Assembly (NCBI RefSeq): GCF_035994945.1
Contig: NZ_CP108677.1
Span: 5,642,001-5,706,000, forward strand
From: Streptomyces sp. NBC_01216
GTDB lineage: Bacteria; Actinomycetota; Actinomycetes; Streptomycetales; Streptomycetaceae
Reading direction: 5' to 3'
Length of the DNA stretch: 64,000 bases
The notes under the pieces are model-generated. The model was not told where the DNA came from. It saw nothing but the letters and a program-made list of their open reading frames with translations, and made no database searches. A program made the position numbers and the translations under genes. Below are positions 24,617 to 28,641 of the stretch, one piece after another. Positions within the stretch are counted from its first letter, which is position 1. The number at the start of each line of letters is the position of its first letter.

Positions 24617-25360
24617 ATGAGGCAGATTCGCCGAAGTGGTCTGGCCACACTGATGGTCACGGGCGGCGCACTCGCCCTCTCGGCGGGCGCCGCGCACGCC
24701 GACGCCGGCGCACAGGGTGCCGCCGTCGGTTCGCCGGGCGTGATCTCCGGCAACAGCGTCCAGCTGCCGGTGCACGTGCCGGTCAACGCGTGCGGGAACA
24801 CCGTCAGCGTCGTCGGGCTGCTCAACCCGGCGTTCGGCAACAGCTGCGAGAACCGCTCAGGCGGATCCGACGGCGTAGGCCGTGCGCACAAGGACCAGCC
24901 GGGCACCCCGCGTGCCGGACAGCAGGGCGGTCACAGCGGTCATACGGGCGGGAACGCGTCCAACGGCGGCGGCGCCGCCGCCGAGGGTGTGGCGCACCAC
25001 TCCCCGGGTGTGATCTCCGGCAACGGTCTCCAGCTGCCGATCGACCTCCCCGCCAACCTCAGCGGCAACTCGATCAACGTGGTCGGTGTCGGCAACCCCG
25101 TCTACGGCAACACCGCGGTCAACGGCCCCGCCACGCCCGAGACGCCCCGTGTGGTGACCCCGCCGACCGAGACCGTGGAGAACCCGCCCGCTCCGAGCAC
25201 CGCCGTGGACATGCCGGCTCCTCAGCCGCACGCGCACTCCGCCGCGCTCGCCAGCACCGGCTCGGACACGGTCGGGATCGCCGCACCGGCCGGCGCCGCG
25301 CTGCTCCTCGGCGGCGCGCTGATGTACCGCCGCGCCCGTCGGACGGGCGGAGCGGCCTGA
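24617..25360 (+). CDS. Long chaplin, cell-wall anchored (ChpA/B/C type)
   Basis: A 247-residue surface protein that helps make the hydrophobic, amyloid-like coat of aerial hyphae and spores. Signal peptide 1-29 ending AHA-DA; chaplin domain 1 about 39-79 with Cys59 and Cys77; Gly/His-rich spacer; chaplin domain 2 about 129-169; Pro-rich wall-spanning stretch; sortase signal LASTG (211-215, LAXTG class E type) followed by a hydrophobic helix and RRARR. Domain 2 has Ser149 and Ala167 where both conserved Cys should be, so it cannot form the usual disulfide. Converges on DUF2293 with 13 bases between stops. Confidence 0.93.
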   Translation: MRQIRRSGLATLMVTGGALALSAGAAHADAGAQGAAVGSPGVISGNSVQLPVHVPVNACGNTVSVVGLLNPAFGNSCENRSGGSDGVGRAHKDQPGTPRAGQQGGHSGHTGGNASNGGGAAAEGVAHHSPGVISGNGLQLPIDLPANLSGNSINVVGVGNPVYGNTAVNGPATPETPRVVTPPTETVENPPAPSTAVDMPAPQPHAHSAALASTGSDTVGIAAPAGAALLLGGALMYRRARRTGGAA

Positions 25361-25373
25361 GGCCCTCCAGCCC

Positions 25374-26033
25374 TCATCCCGGACTCCAGGCCCGGAGCAC
25401 CGTCTCGATGACGGGGGCGACCCTCGACCGGGCCTGGTGACGGGCAACCCCGCGCATGAGCAGCGTGTCGTAGTCGGTGTCCACGTGCCGGACGGAGGCC
25501 CGCACCGCGGCGGTGACCGCACCCCGGTCCAGCGCCCGGCCGGCCGCCGTGCGCCCCACCCGGCCACTGCCCTTCCGCGCTGCGTGCGCGGCGATCTCCG
25601 CCGCCCGCTCCGGCGGGCAGGACGGGAAGAGCCGCCGGATCTCGTTCTCCAACAGCGCCGTGACCTCCGCGTCGCGCTCCGCGCGGCGGGCCGCGTCCCG
25701 GGACCGGCGCCGGGCCCGTGCCTCCGCGTCCGCCAGGCAGGCCGTCTCCGCCAGCGCGAGCGCGGCCTCCTCGACCAGCAGCCCCCGGCGCTCGTACCGG
25801 GTGCGCCGCCTGTTGTGGCGTACGACCACCGCCCACAGCGCGCTGCCCTCGCGGGCCCTGCGGGTGAGAGCGGTGTCCCCACGGGGGAGGAACACCAGAT
25901 GGCCGAGGTCCGCGCAGTCCAGGCAGACCGGCGCGTTGAACTCGACGATCATCCGCTCCAGCGGGCCTCGGCGGCACTCGGAACAGTGGCGGCGTCTCAG
26001 CGGCTCGACGACCACGGGTGCGACGAGTTCCAC
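25374..26033 (-). CDS. DUF2293 domain protein
   Basis: A 219-residue protein. Near the N-terminus two CxxC pairs (CSEC about residues 17-20 and CLDC about 37-40) look like a zinc ribbon. The centre has the DUF2293 hallmark R-T-R-Y-E-R-R-G-L-L-V-E-E-A-A-L followed by a strongly charged helix, and the C-terminal part resembles H-V-D-T-D-Y-D-T-L-L-M-x-G with Arg-rich helices, suggesting nucleic-acid contact. Function unknown. The GTG at 26033 has GGGGAG five bases ahead and is preferred to longer starts. Divergent from the next gene. Confidence 0.78.
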   Translation of the reverse strand: MELVAPVVVEPLRRRHCSECRRGPLERMIVEFNAPVCLDCADLGHLVFLPRGDTALTRRAREGSALWAVVVRHNRRRTRYERRGLLVEEAALALAETACLADAEARARRRSRDAARRAERDAEVTALLENEIRRLFPSCPPERAAEIAAHAARKGSGRVGRTAAGRALDRGAVTAAVRASVRHVDTDYDTLLMRGVARHQARSRVAPVIETVLRAWSPG

Positions 26034-26182
26034 GGTGTCTCCCCTCACTCGGCGGGCGCCGGGGCGGGGACCGGGTCGCACGGACCGGGCGGGTGCCGGT
26101 CCCGTCCCCGGGCGCCTGCGGGGAGGCGGCGACGCAGAAAACCATTCGCTCCCTCACGGCGGACGGCCCTAGGGTCGGCCGT

Positions 26183-26917
26183 GTGGCAACGAGACTCAAT
26201 CAGATCATCGCCGTGGAGAAGGGCGTCAAGTCCCGGGCGCATCAGGACCTGACGGCTGCTCATCACGGTCTCCAGAAGCCGGCGTTGCTCGCCGGCATCT
26301 CCCGCACTTACCAGCCGAAGGACGAGGAGGGCGAGCAGTTGCCGCCCGAGTCCACACGGGTGCAGGTGAAGGCCGAGGACGTGCTGCGCGACACCGCGCG
26401 GGTACTGACCCGCCTGTTCGACGTAACAGCCACCAAAGACTGGGCGAACTGCGAGGCGCGGGCCGACATCACGGTCGACGGCCGCGTCCTGGTCGGCCGG
26501 GTGCCCGTGGCCTACCTGCTCTTCCTGGAGAAGCAGTTGACGGACATCAACACCTTCGTCCGCAAGCTGCCGGTGCTGGACGCCGCCGAATCCTGGACGC
26601 AAGACCCGTCGACCGACGCGTGGAAGACGGAGGTCGTGCGTACGGTCCGTACCAGGAAGGTGCCGCGCAACCACGTCAAGGCGGAGGCCACGGAAAAGCA
26701 CCCGGCACAGGTCGAGGTCTACTACGAGGATGTGCCGGTCGGCTACTGGACGACGGTCAAGTTCTCCGGGGCGCTGCCGGCCCGGCGGGTCAACGAACTG
26801 CTGGAGCGGGTGGAGAAGCTCCAGCAGGCGGTGAAGTTCGCCCGTGAGGAGGCCAATGGCGCCGAGGTCACCGACCAGCGTGTCGGAGACGCCGTCTTCG
26901 GCTACCTCTTCGGGTAG
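26183..26917 (+). CDS. Conserved actinobacterial protein, unrecognised (perhaps DUF7873)
   Basis: A 244-residue soluble protein with no signal or membrane segment. I do not recognise an enzyme motif; I believe the family carries a DUF number (DUF7873) but cannot confirm it. Visible parts: an N-terminal helical region (QIIAVEKGVKSRAHQDLTAAHHG), a central mixed region with W-A-N-C-E-A and G-R-V-P-V-A-Y-L-L-F-L-E-K-Q-L-T-D, a basic segment RTVRTRKVPRNHVK that could touch nucleic acid, and a C-terminal coiled coil (ELLERVEKLQQAVKF). The GTG at 26183 begins the conserved part. It is directly followed by a hairpin and by two tRNA-like RNA elements on the same strand, which suggests, without proof, an RNA-linked role. 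Confidence 0.7.
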   Translation: MATRLNQIIAVEKGVKSRAHQDLTAAHHGLQKPALLAGISRTYQPKDEEGEQLPPESTRVQVKAEDVLRDTARVLTRLFDVTATKDWANCEARADITVDGRVLVGRVPVAYLLFLEKQLTDINTFVRKLPVLDAAESWTQDPSTDAWKTEVVRTVRTRKVPRNHVKAEATEKHPAQVEVYYEDVPVGYWTTVKFSGALPARRVNELLERVEKLQQAVKFAREEANGAEVTDQRVGDAVFGYLFG

Positions 26918-26936
26918 CCGGGACACACCACAGACT

Positions 26937-26960
26937 CCCCGCCCGCGATCGCGGACGGGG
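26937..26960 (+). terminator. Hairpin after the 26183-26917 gene
   Basis: CCCCGCCCGCG and CGCGGACGGGG form an 11-bp stem with one mismatch and a 2-base centre, 19 bases after the stop codon. It may end the protein mRNA, or be a processing signal ahead of the RNA elements. Confidence 0.5.
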
Positions 26961-27003
26961 TGCGCGAGGAGCGCAAAGCTGAAGCTGAGGCTTGTCGTGA
27001 CAT

Positions 27004-27084
27004 CCGCGGTCCAGTGGGGGTTCGAGTCCCTCTCCCGGCACTTACCGCGCCGGGATGGCCCAACCAGGCAGAGGCATACCGCGG
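27004..27084 (+). ncRNA. tRNA-like RNA unit 1, permuted order (Y RNA-like)
   Basis: All pieces of a tRNA are present, but the 3' half comes first. T-stem 27016-27020/27028-27032 with loop TTCGAGT; acceptor strand TCCCGGC 27033-27039; 9-base loop; acceptor strand GCCGGGA 27049-27055 (7 perfect pairs); TG in place of positions 8-9; D-arm 27058-27075 with AACCAGGCAG loop containing G18-G19. The outer ends pair as the anticodon-type helix: CCGCGGT 27004-27010 with ACCGCGG 27078-27084, seven pairs. Further out, GCTGAG 26984-26989 can pair with CTCAGC 27109-27114. No U33-containing anticodon loop and no encoded CCA. This is the topology of the tRNA-mimic part of YrlA-type Y RNAs, or of a permuted tRNA gene. 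Strand is inferred from the T-loop and D-loop sense. Exact RNA ends unknown. Confidence 0.72.
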
Positions 27085-27156
27085 TCAATCTCAGACTATT
27101 GCTCCAGACTCAGCATGCGCCGCTCATCGCCGGATCGACCGGGCCCGGGCCCCGGT

Positions 27157-27227
27157 GCGTCGAAATGCCAGTTCGAATCTGGTCCGCCGAGCTCGATCGG
27201 CGGTGGTCCAACGGCAGGACGCGACGC
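27157..27227 (+). ncRNA. tRNA-like RNA unit 2, permuted order (Y RNA-like)
   Basis: The same permuted plan as the element 73 bases upstream, with different helix sequences. GCGTCG 27157-27162 (3' anticodon strand plus one), AAAT variable region, T-stem GCCAG/CTGGT with loop TTCGAAT 27172-27178, acceptor strand CCGCCGA 27184-27190, 6-base loop GCTCGA, acceptor strand TCGGCGG 27197-27203 (7 perfect pairs), TG, D-arm GTCC-AACGGCA-GGAC 27206-27220, G26, then CGACGC 27222-27227 pairing perfectly with GCGTCG. Flanks continue the helix: GGGCCCGGG 27141-27149 with CCCGGGTCC 27240-27248 (nine pairs, one G-U). Different sequences in the two units with all helices kept is covariation evidence for a selected structure. 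Confidence 0.75.
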
Positions 27228-27286
27228 CATGACGAATGACCCGGGTCCTCAAGCGTGCCGGCGTGTGAAGGGGAGCGGCACCGACA

Positions 27287-27317
27287 GGGTCCGGGGGCAG
27301 GCTACGCCCTCGGACCC
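27287..27317 (+). terminator. Hairpin downstream of the tRNA-like units
   Basis: GGGTCCGGGGGC and GCCCTCGGACCC form a 12-bp stem (one G-U) with a 7-base loop AGGCTAC. It lies 39 bases beyond the outer helix of unit 2 and could end the RNA transcript. The remaining sequence to 27429 is GC-rich with no gene. Confidence 0.55.
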
Positions 27318-27429
27318 GCTCCGCTTGCCGGCGGACGACCCGCCGGTGCTCCTCCGGCGGAGGAATCCCCTCAGGTGATGTCGAAGGCCCCTCCGGCGGG
27401 TTCCGGCCGAGGAACCCCCTTCGGTCGTG

Positions 27430-28641
27430 TCATTGCCGGTAGCCGCTCAGGAACCGCCCGATGCGCCCGACGGCCGCGTCCAGGTCGTCGGCGTGCGGCA
27501 GGGTCAGGATGCGGAAGTGGTCCGGGCGCGGCCAGTTGAATCCGGTGCCCTGCACCACCTGGATCTTCTCCCGCAGCAGCAGGTCCAGGACGAACTTCTC
27601 GTCGTCGTGGATCGGGTGCACCTTCGGGTCGAGCCTGGGGAAGGCGTACAGCGCGCCCTTGGGCTTCACGCAGGACACGCCGGGGATCTCGTTCAGCTTC
27701 TCCCACGCGCGGTCGCGCTGCTCGTACAGCCGTCCACCCGGGGCGGTCAGCTCGTGGATCGACTGCCGGCCGCCGAGCGCGGCCTGGATGGCGTACTGGG
27801 CCGGGGCGTTGGGGCACAGCCGCATCGAGGCCAGCATGGTCAGCCCCTCGAGGTAGTTTTTCGCGTGCTGCCGCGGGCCGCTGACGACCAGCCAGCCGGA
27901 GCGGAAGCCCGCCACCCGGTAGGTCTTGGAGAGTCCGGAGAAGGTGAGGACGACCAGGTCGGGGGCGAGGGCGGCGGCGGTGTGGTGCACGGCGTCGTCG
28001 TAGAGGATCTGGTCGTAGATCTCGTCGGCGAAGACCATGAGCCCGTGGCGCCGGGCGAGGTCGAGAACGCCCTCGACGATCTCGCGCGGATAGACCGCGC
28101 CGGTCGGGTTGTTGGGGTTGATGATCACGACGGCGCGGGTCCGGTCGGTGATCTTCGACGCCATGTCGTCGAGGTCCGGGTACCACTCCGCTGACTCGTC
28201 GCAGAGGTAGTGCACGGCCCTGCCGCCCGCGAGGGTGGTGGCGGCGGTCCACAGGGGGAAGTCGGGGGCGGGGATCAGGATCTCGTCGCCGTCCTCCAGG
28301 AGTGCCTGAACGGCCATCGAGACCAGTTCGGAGACACCGTTGCCGAGGAAGACGTCGTCGACGTCGACGTCCGGCAACCCCTGCGCCTGATAGCGCTGGG
28401 CCACGGCCCGCCGGGCGGAGAGGATGCCGCGGGAGTCGGTGTAGCCGTGTGCCTTCGGAAGCATCCGGATCATGTCCTGGACGATCTCCTCGGGGGCCTC
28501 GAAGCCGAAGAGCGCCGGGTTGCCGGTGTTGAGGCGCAGGACGCTGTGGCCCGCCTCCTCCAGGGCGTTGGCGTGCTCGATCACCGGACCGCGGATCTCG
28601 TAGCAGACCTCGCTCAGCTTGCTCGACTGCCGGAACTCCAT
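27430..28641 (-). CDS. PLP-dependent aminotransferase, AlaA type
   Basis: A 403-residue class I/II aminotransferase. PLP-binding features are N176-P-N-N-P-T-G (strand and loop), Asp206 and Tyr209 in ADEIYDQILYDD, the Schiff-base Lys239 in FSGLSKTYRVAGFRSGW, and the C-terminal Arg in HFRILTLP that holds the carboxylate. The start MEFRQSSKLSEVCYEIRGPV and overall sequence match the alanine-synthesising AlaA/YfbQ group (glutamate-pyruvate type) of actinobacteria; assignment to alanine is from family resemblance. Divergent from an HxlR-type regulator with 86 bases between starts, and the regulator operators lie in that gap, so it may be the controlled gene. Confidence 0.9.
   Translation of the reverse strand: MEFRQSSKLSEVCYEIRGPVIEHANALEEAGHSVLRLNTGNPALFGFEAPEEIVQDMIRMLPKAHGYTDSRGILSARRAVAQRYQAQGLPDVDVDDVFLGNGVSELVSMAVQALLEDGDEILIPAPDFPLWTAATTLAGGRAVHYLCDESAEWYPDLDDMASKITDRTRAVVIINPNNPTGAVYPREIVEGVLDLARRHGLMVFADEIYDQILYDDAVHHTAAALAPDLVVLTFSGLSKTYRVAGFRSGWLVVSGPRQHAKNYLEGLTMLASMRLCPNAPAQYAIQAALGGRQSIHELTAPGGRLYEQRDRAWEKLNEIPGVSCVKPKGALYAFPRLDPKVHPIHDDEKFVLDLLLREKIQVVQGTGFNWPRPDHFRILTLPHADDLDAAVGRIGRFLSGYRQ

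Follow-up and report, generated by a model that had tools for sequence, protein, structure and literature searches.

YrlA RNAs, the partners of Ro60 (Rsr), are the closest described counterparts of the RNAs considered here. PMC8394870 describes them as a stalk of paired ends carrying a head that resembles the D, T and acceptor arms of transfer RNA (tRNA), and PMC11472068 superposes this head on tRNA with circular permutation. The present analysis concerns a 64,000-nucleotide (nt) stretch of Streptomyces sp. NBC_01216 (NZ_CP108677.1, positions 5,642,001 to 5,706,000), referred to as the window, in which two predicted tandem RNA units of comparable build follow a gene of the DUF7873 family. The predicted RNA is a permuted tRNA mimic as in the Y RNAs, with a different protein partner, a tandem arrangement and a wide phage distribution, and DUF7873 accompanies it in every linkage test made.

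Several known systems offer points of comparison. Like YrlA with Ro60/Rsr (RF02553; PDB 6CU1), the units have a long stalk and a circularly permuted T/acceptor/D head. They differ from it in having DUF7873 as the partner gene, two units in tandem, frequent CCA in the phage heads and a sub-threshold score with the YrlA model. In the permuted two-piece transfer-messenger RNA (tmRNA; RF04321), the 3′ acceptor strand, a linker and the 5′ acceptor strand follow one another as they do here, and PMC3985003 gives the same order of acceptor strands and similar processing; unlike this RNA, the units have a complete D-stem, two heads and an adjacent DUF7873 gene. In algae and one archaeon, permuted tRNA genes also place the 3′ half before the 5′ half, and for their linker PMC3978253 reports RNase P and tRNase Z as the proposed enzymes. 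These genes yield decoding tRNAs re-joined through bulge-helix-bulge processing, whereas the outer strands of the present units run into a conserved stalk and no anticodon loop is seen. Finally, phage tRNA arrays can contain the cassette, but its units differ from ordinary tRNAs.

Architecture of the two units

The initial annotation had described a tRNA in circularly permuted order at 27004-27084, and all the elements it claimed there are seen base by base, namely the outer helix, the T-arm, seven acceptor pairs, a 9-base linker and the D-arm. The true extent of this first unit is greater, with a stalk that reaches 26978 and 27114. A second unit follows 13 nt downstream, so placed that the two T-loops lie 151 nt apart. 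The main features, in window coordinates, are the following:

26183..26917, plus strand: DUF7873 (PF25283) gene, 244 amino acids (aa), the proposed protein partner (Pfam, 401.9 bits)
26978..27114, plus strand: unit 1, stalk and permuted tRNA-like head (alignment A4, pair counts, fold, covariance model R2)
26978..27003, plus strand: 5′ stalk strand of unit 1, GCUGA..CUG.GGC..GUC.UGA (hand drawing, minimum-energy fold, most of the headless loci inspected)
27004..27084, plus strand: head of unit 1, with outer helix, T-arm, acceptor stem, 9-nt linker (27040-27048) and D-arm
27085..27114, plus strand: 3′ stalk strand of unit 1, containing the conserved CUCAGACUAUUGCUCCAGACUCAGC (conserved in Streptomyces, partly in phages)
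27128..27263, plus strand: unit 2, stalk and permuted tRNA-like head (alignment A3, pair counts, fold, covariance model R1)
27134..27140, plus strand: conserved internal loop of the unit 2 stalk, 5′ side, AUCGACC, facing 27249-27257 (recurs in Streptomyces and many phages)
27157..27227, plus strand: head of unit 2 (sequence reading, pair counts, detector)
27249..27257, plus strand: conserved internal loop of the unit 2 stalk, 3′ side, UCAAGCGUG (UUAAACG type in many relatives)

In unit 1, the outer helix joins 27004-27010 to 27078-27084 through seven pairs (CCGCGGT/ACCGCGG). The T-stem (27016-27020 / 27028-27032) encloses the loop TTCGAGT, which begins at 27021, and the acceptor stem pairs 27033-27039 with 27049-27055 over seven positions; the D-arm bears GG. 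The corresponding parts of unit 2 are an outer helix at 27157-27162 / 27222-27227, a T-stem at 27167-27171 / 27179-27183, an acceptor stem at 27184-27190 / 27197-27203 with the linker 27191-27196 between its strands, and a D-stem at 27206-27209 / 27217-27220. The stalk of unit 2 comprises an outer helix, the conserved internal loop and a nine-pair helix, and the AUCGACC side of that loop is a candidate protein-binding site.

No family of Rfam 15 reached its gathering threshold over the units, whether in the window or in 20 other loci, 18 of them with clear units. Neither DUF7873 nor these RNAs appeared in the titles or abstract openings of the literature searched, a body of text that mostly excluded subscription papers. 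In none of the 14 phage stretches examined are the units annotated as tRNA-like RNAs.

The statement in the initial annotation that no normal-order tRNA can be drawn holds for the window, where ARAGORN reports no tRNA, and fails among the relatives, since in 36 of 80 Streptomyces loci the same program draws one over the T-arm of unit 1. The anticodons of these candidate decoding tRNAs vary (agc, gaa, gag, unassigned). The drawings were judged spurious mainly because the upstream strand ignores the acceptor changes in the three loci inspected of the 36: it pairs worse than the permuted partner in L090 and L101, and in L074 it reaches seven pairs, one of them G-T. A related call is found in Klebsiella phage vB_KpM_FBKp24, where the record places a tRNA-Sup(tta) across the T-arm of unit 2 (L238:3515-3594), likely a false tRNA call.

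Covariation and the tRNA-like elbow

The permuted head was sought with a strict detector that demands five of five T-stem pairs, seven of seven acceptor pairs, a D-arm pattern and at least four of five outer-helix pairs. Over both strands of the 64 kb it matched only at 27021 and 27172, which are units 1 and 2, and in 40 dinucleotide shuffles of the plus strand it matched nowhere. With looser limits, the plus strand gave seven matches against a shuffle mean of 2.0. Unconstrained minimum-energy folding reproduces the stalk and head helices of both units together with some extra pairs; the folding-energy z values are -2.3 and -1.6, and energy by itself is weak evidence.

The units of Streptomyces were aligned with MAFFT (A3 for unit 2, A4 for unit 1). 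The detector supplied the rows, which after thinning by similarity numbered 42 and 23, respectively, plus the window. Because the rows were picked in this way, complete acceptor and T stems are favoured in both alignments, while the identity of the pairing bases was left free. For unit 2 (43 sequences), 96.5% of the cells are paired, as against at most 44.5% in slid controls, and 23 of 37 pairs are changed on both sides, compared with 9.3 in shuffles. Unit 1 (24 sequences) has 96.2% of its cells paired, with slid controls at 47.7% or below, and 7 of 39 pairs changed on both sides against 3.4 in shuffles. Its further pair types do not clearly exceed the shuffle level (55 of 500 shuffles reach the count), and in its stalk beyond the outer helix of the head no pair shows changes on both sides, many pairs being invariant. 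The acceptor stems vary in a concerted manner, as in TCCCGGC/GCCGGGA, CTCCGGC/GCCGGAG and CCGCGGC/GCCGCGG.

A tertiary contact provides a further line of evidence. The Levitt pair of tRNAs joins residues 15 and 48, which in unit 1 correspond to A15 at 27063 and U48 at 27015. Streptomyces, Nonomuraea and phages together supply 198 distinct heads, in which the 15-48 combination is A-U in 163, G-C in 29 and otherwise composed in 6, counts taken from mutually related heads, for which a p-value is no gauge of independent events, and some of which may be tandem tRNAs. U8 is present in 196 of the 198 and A14 in 195; the detector required an A near position 14 and imposed neither U8 nor any relation between 15 and 48. 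When the phage heads are restricted to those that have U8 and A14, a purine at 15 and a pyrimidine at 48, 107 remain; 79 of these are A-U, 28 are G-C and none is mixed, and the Streptomyces group contains two A-C combinations. The G-C form is seen in phages of Klebsiella, Rhizobium, Vibrio, Rhodococcus and Gordonia as well as in further viral contigs. This switching between A-U and G-C is good evidence, at the level of sequence, that the heads form a true tRNA elbow.

The suggestion of a Y RNA-like tRNA mimic, made when the element was first described, is therefore borne out as regards its build, through covariation and the 15-48 pair, and is not upheld as regards identity with a Ro60 Y RNA, for which the YrlA model gives 18.6 bits against a cut-off of 69.

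Linkage to DUF7873 in Streptomyces and phages

The protein encoded upstream of the units belongs to DUF7873, with a Pfam match of 401.9 bits against a cut-off of 27 (E 1.5e-120). Its start codon, GTG, was chosen by homologue length, many homologues being 243-244 aa long, and of 7999 proteins scored, 6801 belong to the family at E 1e-3.

The association between gene and RNA was assessed in a genus sample of 101 Streptomyces genomes, 50 with DUF7873 and 51 without it. DNA matches to the units occur in 48 genomes of the sample, all of which belong to the 50 with DUF7873. The initial annotation had proposed a covariance-model search built from the units, and this was carried out with models trained on Streptomyces only (R1 for unit 2, R2 for unit 1). 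Strong R1 matches (68.5 bits or more) were obtained in 49/50 genomes with DUF7873 and in 0/51 without; the single genome missed (G010) has a unit by pattern.

The sampled loci, fetched via DUF7873, were the best 80 of 403 genome relatives, namely 79 Streptomyces and one 'Actinobacteria bacterium' (referred to together as Streptomyces loci), and the best 80 of 231 viral relatives in IMG/VR. The detector found a unit in 79 Streptomyces loci, with two units in 47, and in 72 viral loci, with at least two calls in 44, as against four calls in 80 shuffled downstream stretches. The pattern alone is unspecific, because the 80 upstream control stretches of the viral loci gave 24 unit calls, perhaps from tRNA arrays. 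With a limit of E 1e-3, model R1 or R2 recognises 74 of the 80 viral loci, and two more (L175 and L200) are added by pattern, so that unit and DUF7873 share a locus in 79/80 Streptomyces and 76/80 viral cases. Four viral loci (L172, L173, L208, L211) yielded no unit by any method. In the reverse direction, 28 viral contigs were collected by the inter-unit motif; 12 of them hold a unit, and the other 16 have neither unit nor DUF7873. In 11 of the 12, DUF7873 lies about 0.4-1.1 kb upstream on the same strand, and in the twelfth it is located on the other part of the contig (L191).

The cassette is spread across phages of diverse hosts. DUF7873 was found in 73 of 50,697 phage records, distributed by host as Vibrio (29), Gordonia (12), Rhizobium (12), Klebsiella (7), Serratia (6), Arthrobacter (3), Pseudanabaena (2), Rhodococcus (1) and Microcoleus (1). 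At least one permuted unit follows the gene in 13 of the 14 named phage stretches examined; by pattern, a single unit is seen in the phages of Rhizobium and Vibrio and two in the others, Gordonia phage Ziko being an exception in that its unit 1 is detected by model R2 only. In the remaining stretch, from Microcoleus phage My-WqHQDG (L071), no unit stands directly after DUF7873, and a weak R2 match lies 1.8 kb downstream (E 1.7e-4). The usual place of the units is taken in this phage by a HEARO RNA (L071:3941-4150, 129 bits). Among bacteria, a phylum sample contained DUF7873 in 6 of 246 genomes, all Streptomyces, and a Nonomuraea record has both the gene and the units. The control genome of Deinobacterium chartae matches DUF7873 as well as TROVE.

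In Gordonia phage Phendrix and Rhodococcus phage NiceHouse the cassette sits among tRNA genes. The array of Phendrix also contains an unannotated Rfam tmRNA match of 89 bits (L067:1063-1591), and in NiceHouse a gene for a Band-7-like membrane protein comes directly after the units (L068:4368-5240). In RNA-repair systems, Band-7 proteins act together with a tRNA-like RNA.

Next to DUF7873 in the window are a Chaplin-type protein (ChpA-C) at 24617-25360 and a DUF2293 gene at 25374-26081, and such neighbours are not conserved over the 80 Streptomyces loci (DUF2293 in 7, chaplin in 7, aminotransferase in 25, HxlR in 25). Promoter and terminator scans of 26880-27420 returned nothing, including no T-run terminator. 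Two hairpins flank the units:

26937..26960, plus strand: hairpin after the DUF7873 stop codon and before unit 1, a possible mRNA terminator or attenuator (sequence reading)
27287..27317, plus strand: GC-rich hairpin 3′ of unit 2, a possible 3′ end (sequence reading)

In related loci, a strong hairpin with apical GGAUAUG was found by exact motif 45-170 nt past unit 2 in 18 of 79 loci checked; examples are the viral loci L164, L177 and L189, and it was seen by eye in three phages (L066-L068). Its role may be that of a terminator or of an additional, third binding element.

Proposed role and alternative explanations

The two tandem permuted units, predicted to be transcribed, may well form with DUF7873 a ribonucleoprotein (RNP) that would act as a tRNA decoy. 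We advance this proposal tentatively, on the strength of the part order, the covarying stems, the 15-48 pair, the linkage to DUF7873, the phage spread and the persistence of the stalk. DUF7873 would hold the stalks, most likely at their conserved internal loops, and the heads, which have no anticodon loop, would present the elbow, the acceptor stem and, in many phages, CCA to tRNA-recognising enzymes. These enzymes may thereby be held or kept off real tRNAs, which in phages could shield phage translation, while in Streptomyces the cassette would be a resident RNP. CCA-bearing linkers would be removed by RNase P and 3′ processing, leaving the head in two pieces with its CCA end free, and the short conserved linkers of Streptomyces (4-6 nt) may stay closed. 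For YrlA, competitive inhibition of a tRNA nuclease is one possibility named by the authors of PMC7790460.

Natural variation in unit 1 bears on how stalk and head would share this work. In 26 of 80 Streptomyces loci the head of unit 1 is absent and a short hairpin caps the stalk. Among 14 putative headless examples inspected, most fold with the same stalk, one (L108) has a head after all, and two are incomplete or folded otherwise. The stalk is the more conserved part of unit 1, because the head is replaced while the stalk persists. This fits a putative protein-binding stalk with an exchangeable head, and the loss of the head argues against any function requiring two heads.

DUF7873 is not basic, and it is without an informative fold relative, so that the protein offers no support of its own for RNA binding. 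A PDB sequence search gave no convincing match (best E 0.064), and no PHROGs family was matched. The AlphaFold2 model, which is confident (pLDDT 93.7, pTM 0.70), found nothing in the PDB by Foldseek at E 0.001; its best viral structure matches were A0A514TZW7 (E 1e-4) and an uncharacterised protein of Vibrio phage Vp_R1 (probability 1.00, E 0.014).

A bolder version, which we regard as conceivable though rather unlikely, would make the cassette a new phage and bacterial RNP class: DUF7873 bound to twin permuted RNAs whose source would have been the central portion of a tandemly duplicated tRNA (3′ half, spacer, 5′ half). Host tRNA-processing enzymes would cut these RNAs so that one particle shows two free CCA ends, and phages would employ it to capture or protect the tRNA machinery.

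The main rival to the decoy is that DUF7873 would hold the stalk while the head would recruit a tRNA-binding RNase such as PNPase for targeted RNA degradation. It is unlikely, yet it draws on a close structural parallel, in that the build equals that of YrlA, stalk and permuted head, and the YrlA head is reported in PMC8394870 to bind PNPase. The fold searches with DUF7873 gave no clear relative that would point to a Ro60-like ring.

Somewhat less probable is a two-piece precursor, in which the linker (the segment joining the two acceptor strands) would be cut from both units and the free CCA ends aminoacylated, in parallel to two-piece tmRNA, for which PMC3985003 describes the same gene order and a comparable processing. 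The linkers of the phage tandem pairs are 6-76 nt long, and a discriminator plus CCA stands at the linker start in 19 of 32 unit 1 heads and 13 of 32 unit 2 heads, together 32/64, a count that includes near-duplicate viral loci. CCA is rarer among the tRNA calls in such loci (37/290), and 7 of 33 distinct tRNA genes examined in the source genome encode it (68 genes in the genome). The view that no CCA is encoded is accordingly correct for the window and does not extend to the family. The nearest isotype points the same way for unit 1, for which a rough, ungapped comparison gives tRNA-Leu as the closest in 33 of 40 phage loci, Leu being also the commonest isotype among the tRNA calls (50/323). 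Streptomyces heads tell against such cutting, with linkers of 4-42 nt in unit 1 and 6-23 nt in unit 2, often as short as 4-6 nt, and N-CCA in 9 of 53 unit 1 and 1 of 73 unit 2 heads; the unit 2 linker is exactly GCTCGA in 51 of 73. On these linker and CCA counts, phage heads resemble precursors from which a CCA end would be made, and unit 2 of Streptomyces resembles a closed loop. Further points against the precursor are the isotype of unit 2, which is mixed, and the tmRNA families, none of which matched at gathering in the window or up to E 10 over 26850-27450. One viral contig with DUF7873 and units carries, apart from the units, a permuted tmRNA match (RF04321, 59.8 bits, L223:5537-5834).

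There is a small chance that the structures are a cis element, that is, the 3′ region of the DUF7873 mRNA, controlling its decay or expression. Their position accords with this, a same-strand unit lying 3′ of DUF7873 by pattern in 72/80 viral and 79/80 Streptomyces loci, but the arrangement is not fixed, the RNA being upstream in L232 and on the opposite strand in L221, and a 3′ untranslated hairpin needs no tRNA tertiary fold.

That the units are divergent YrlA RNAs serving a Ro60 encoded elsewhere is very improbable. The window has no Ro60 (TROVE) gene, as the initial annotation stated, and the only TROVE match in the genome lies 1.15 Mb away; it is partial (C1:6818666-6818860, profile positions 288-354, in an open frame of 570 aa), and the 4 kb around it contain no RNA at Rfam gathering thresholds. 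YrlA is the only tRNA-like Rfam match over unit 1, far below its cut-off (E 0.35), and unit 2 is not listed. TROVE and DUF7873 show no clear association (34/50 genomes with DUF7873 against 26/51 others, p 0.11). A TROVE match is lacking in 16 of the 50 genomes with DUF7873 and in five of six phage records, the exception being Rhizobium phage RHph_Y65. Ro60-type proteins are reported from a subset of jumbo phages in PMC7824862, next to a discussion of RNA repair.

Finally, a remnant of tandem tRNAs (the 3′ half of one gene, the spacer and the 5′ half of the next) or a re-joined decoding permuted tRNA can practically be set aside: weak R1 matches (37-50 bits, one each) do occur in most genomes of the genus sample, and in the source genome, the only one checked, the match (C1:5063663-5063796) covers two adjacent real tRNAs, but the window has no tRNA call, a long conserved stalk replaces the anticodon arm, and the strong units are separate from these matches and go with DUF7873. 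An origin of the units in the middle of a tandem tRNA pair, which has the same order of parts, is plausible, and the weak matches are perhaps a hint of it.

Permuted tRNA mimics of bacteria are best known as Ro60 Y RNAs, and the units described here represent a second kind with another protein. Among the records examined, this mimic occurs together with DUF7873 in about half of the sampled Streptomyces (50/101) and in phages of seven host genera. It provides a lead to the function of DUF7873, a protein family of thousands of members, and the headless natural variants separate stalk from head. Beyond Streptomyces, the finding raises the testable question of why phages carry tRNA-shaped RNAs without an anticodon loop.
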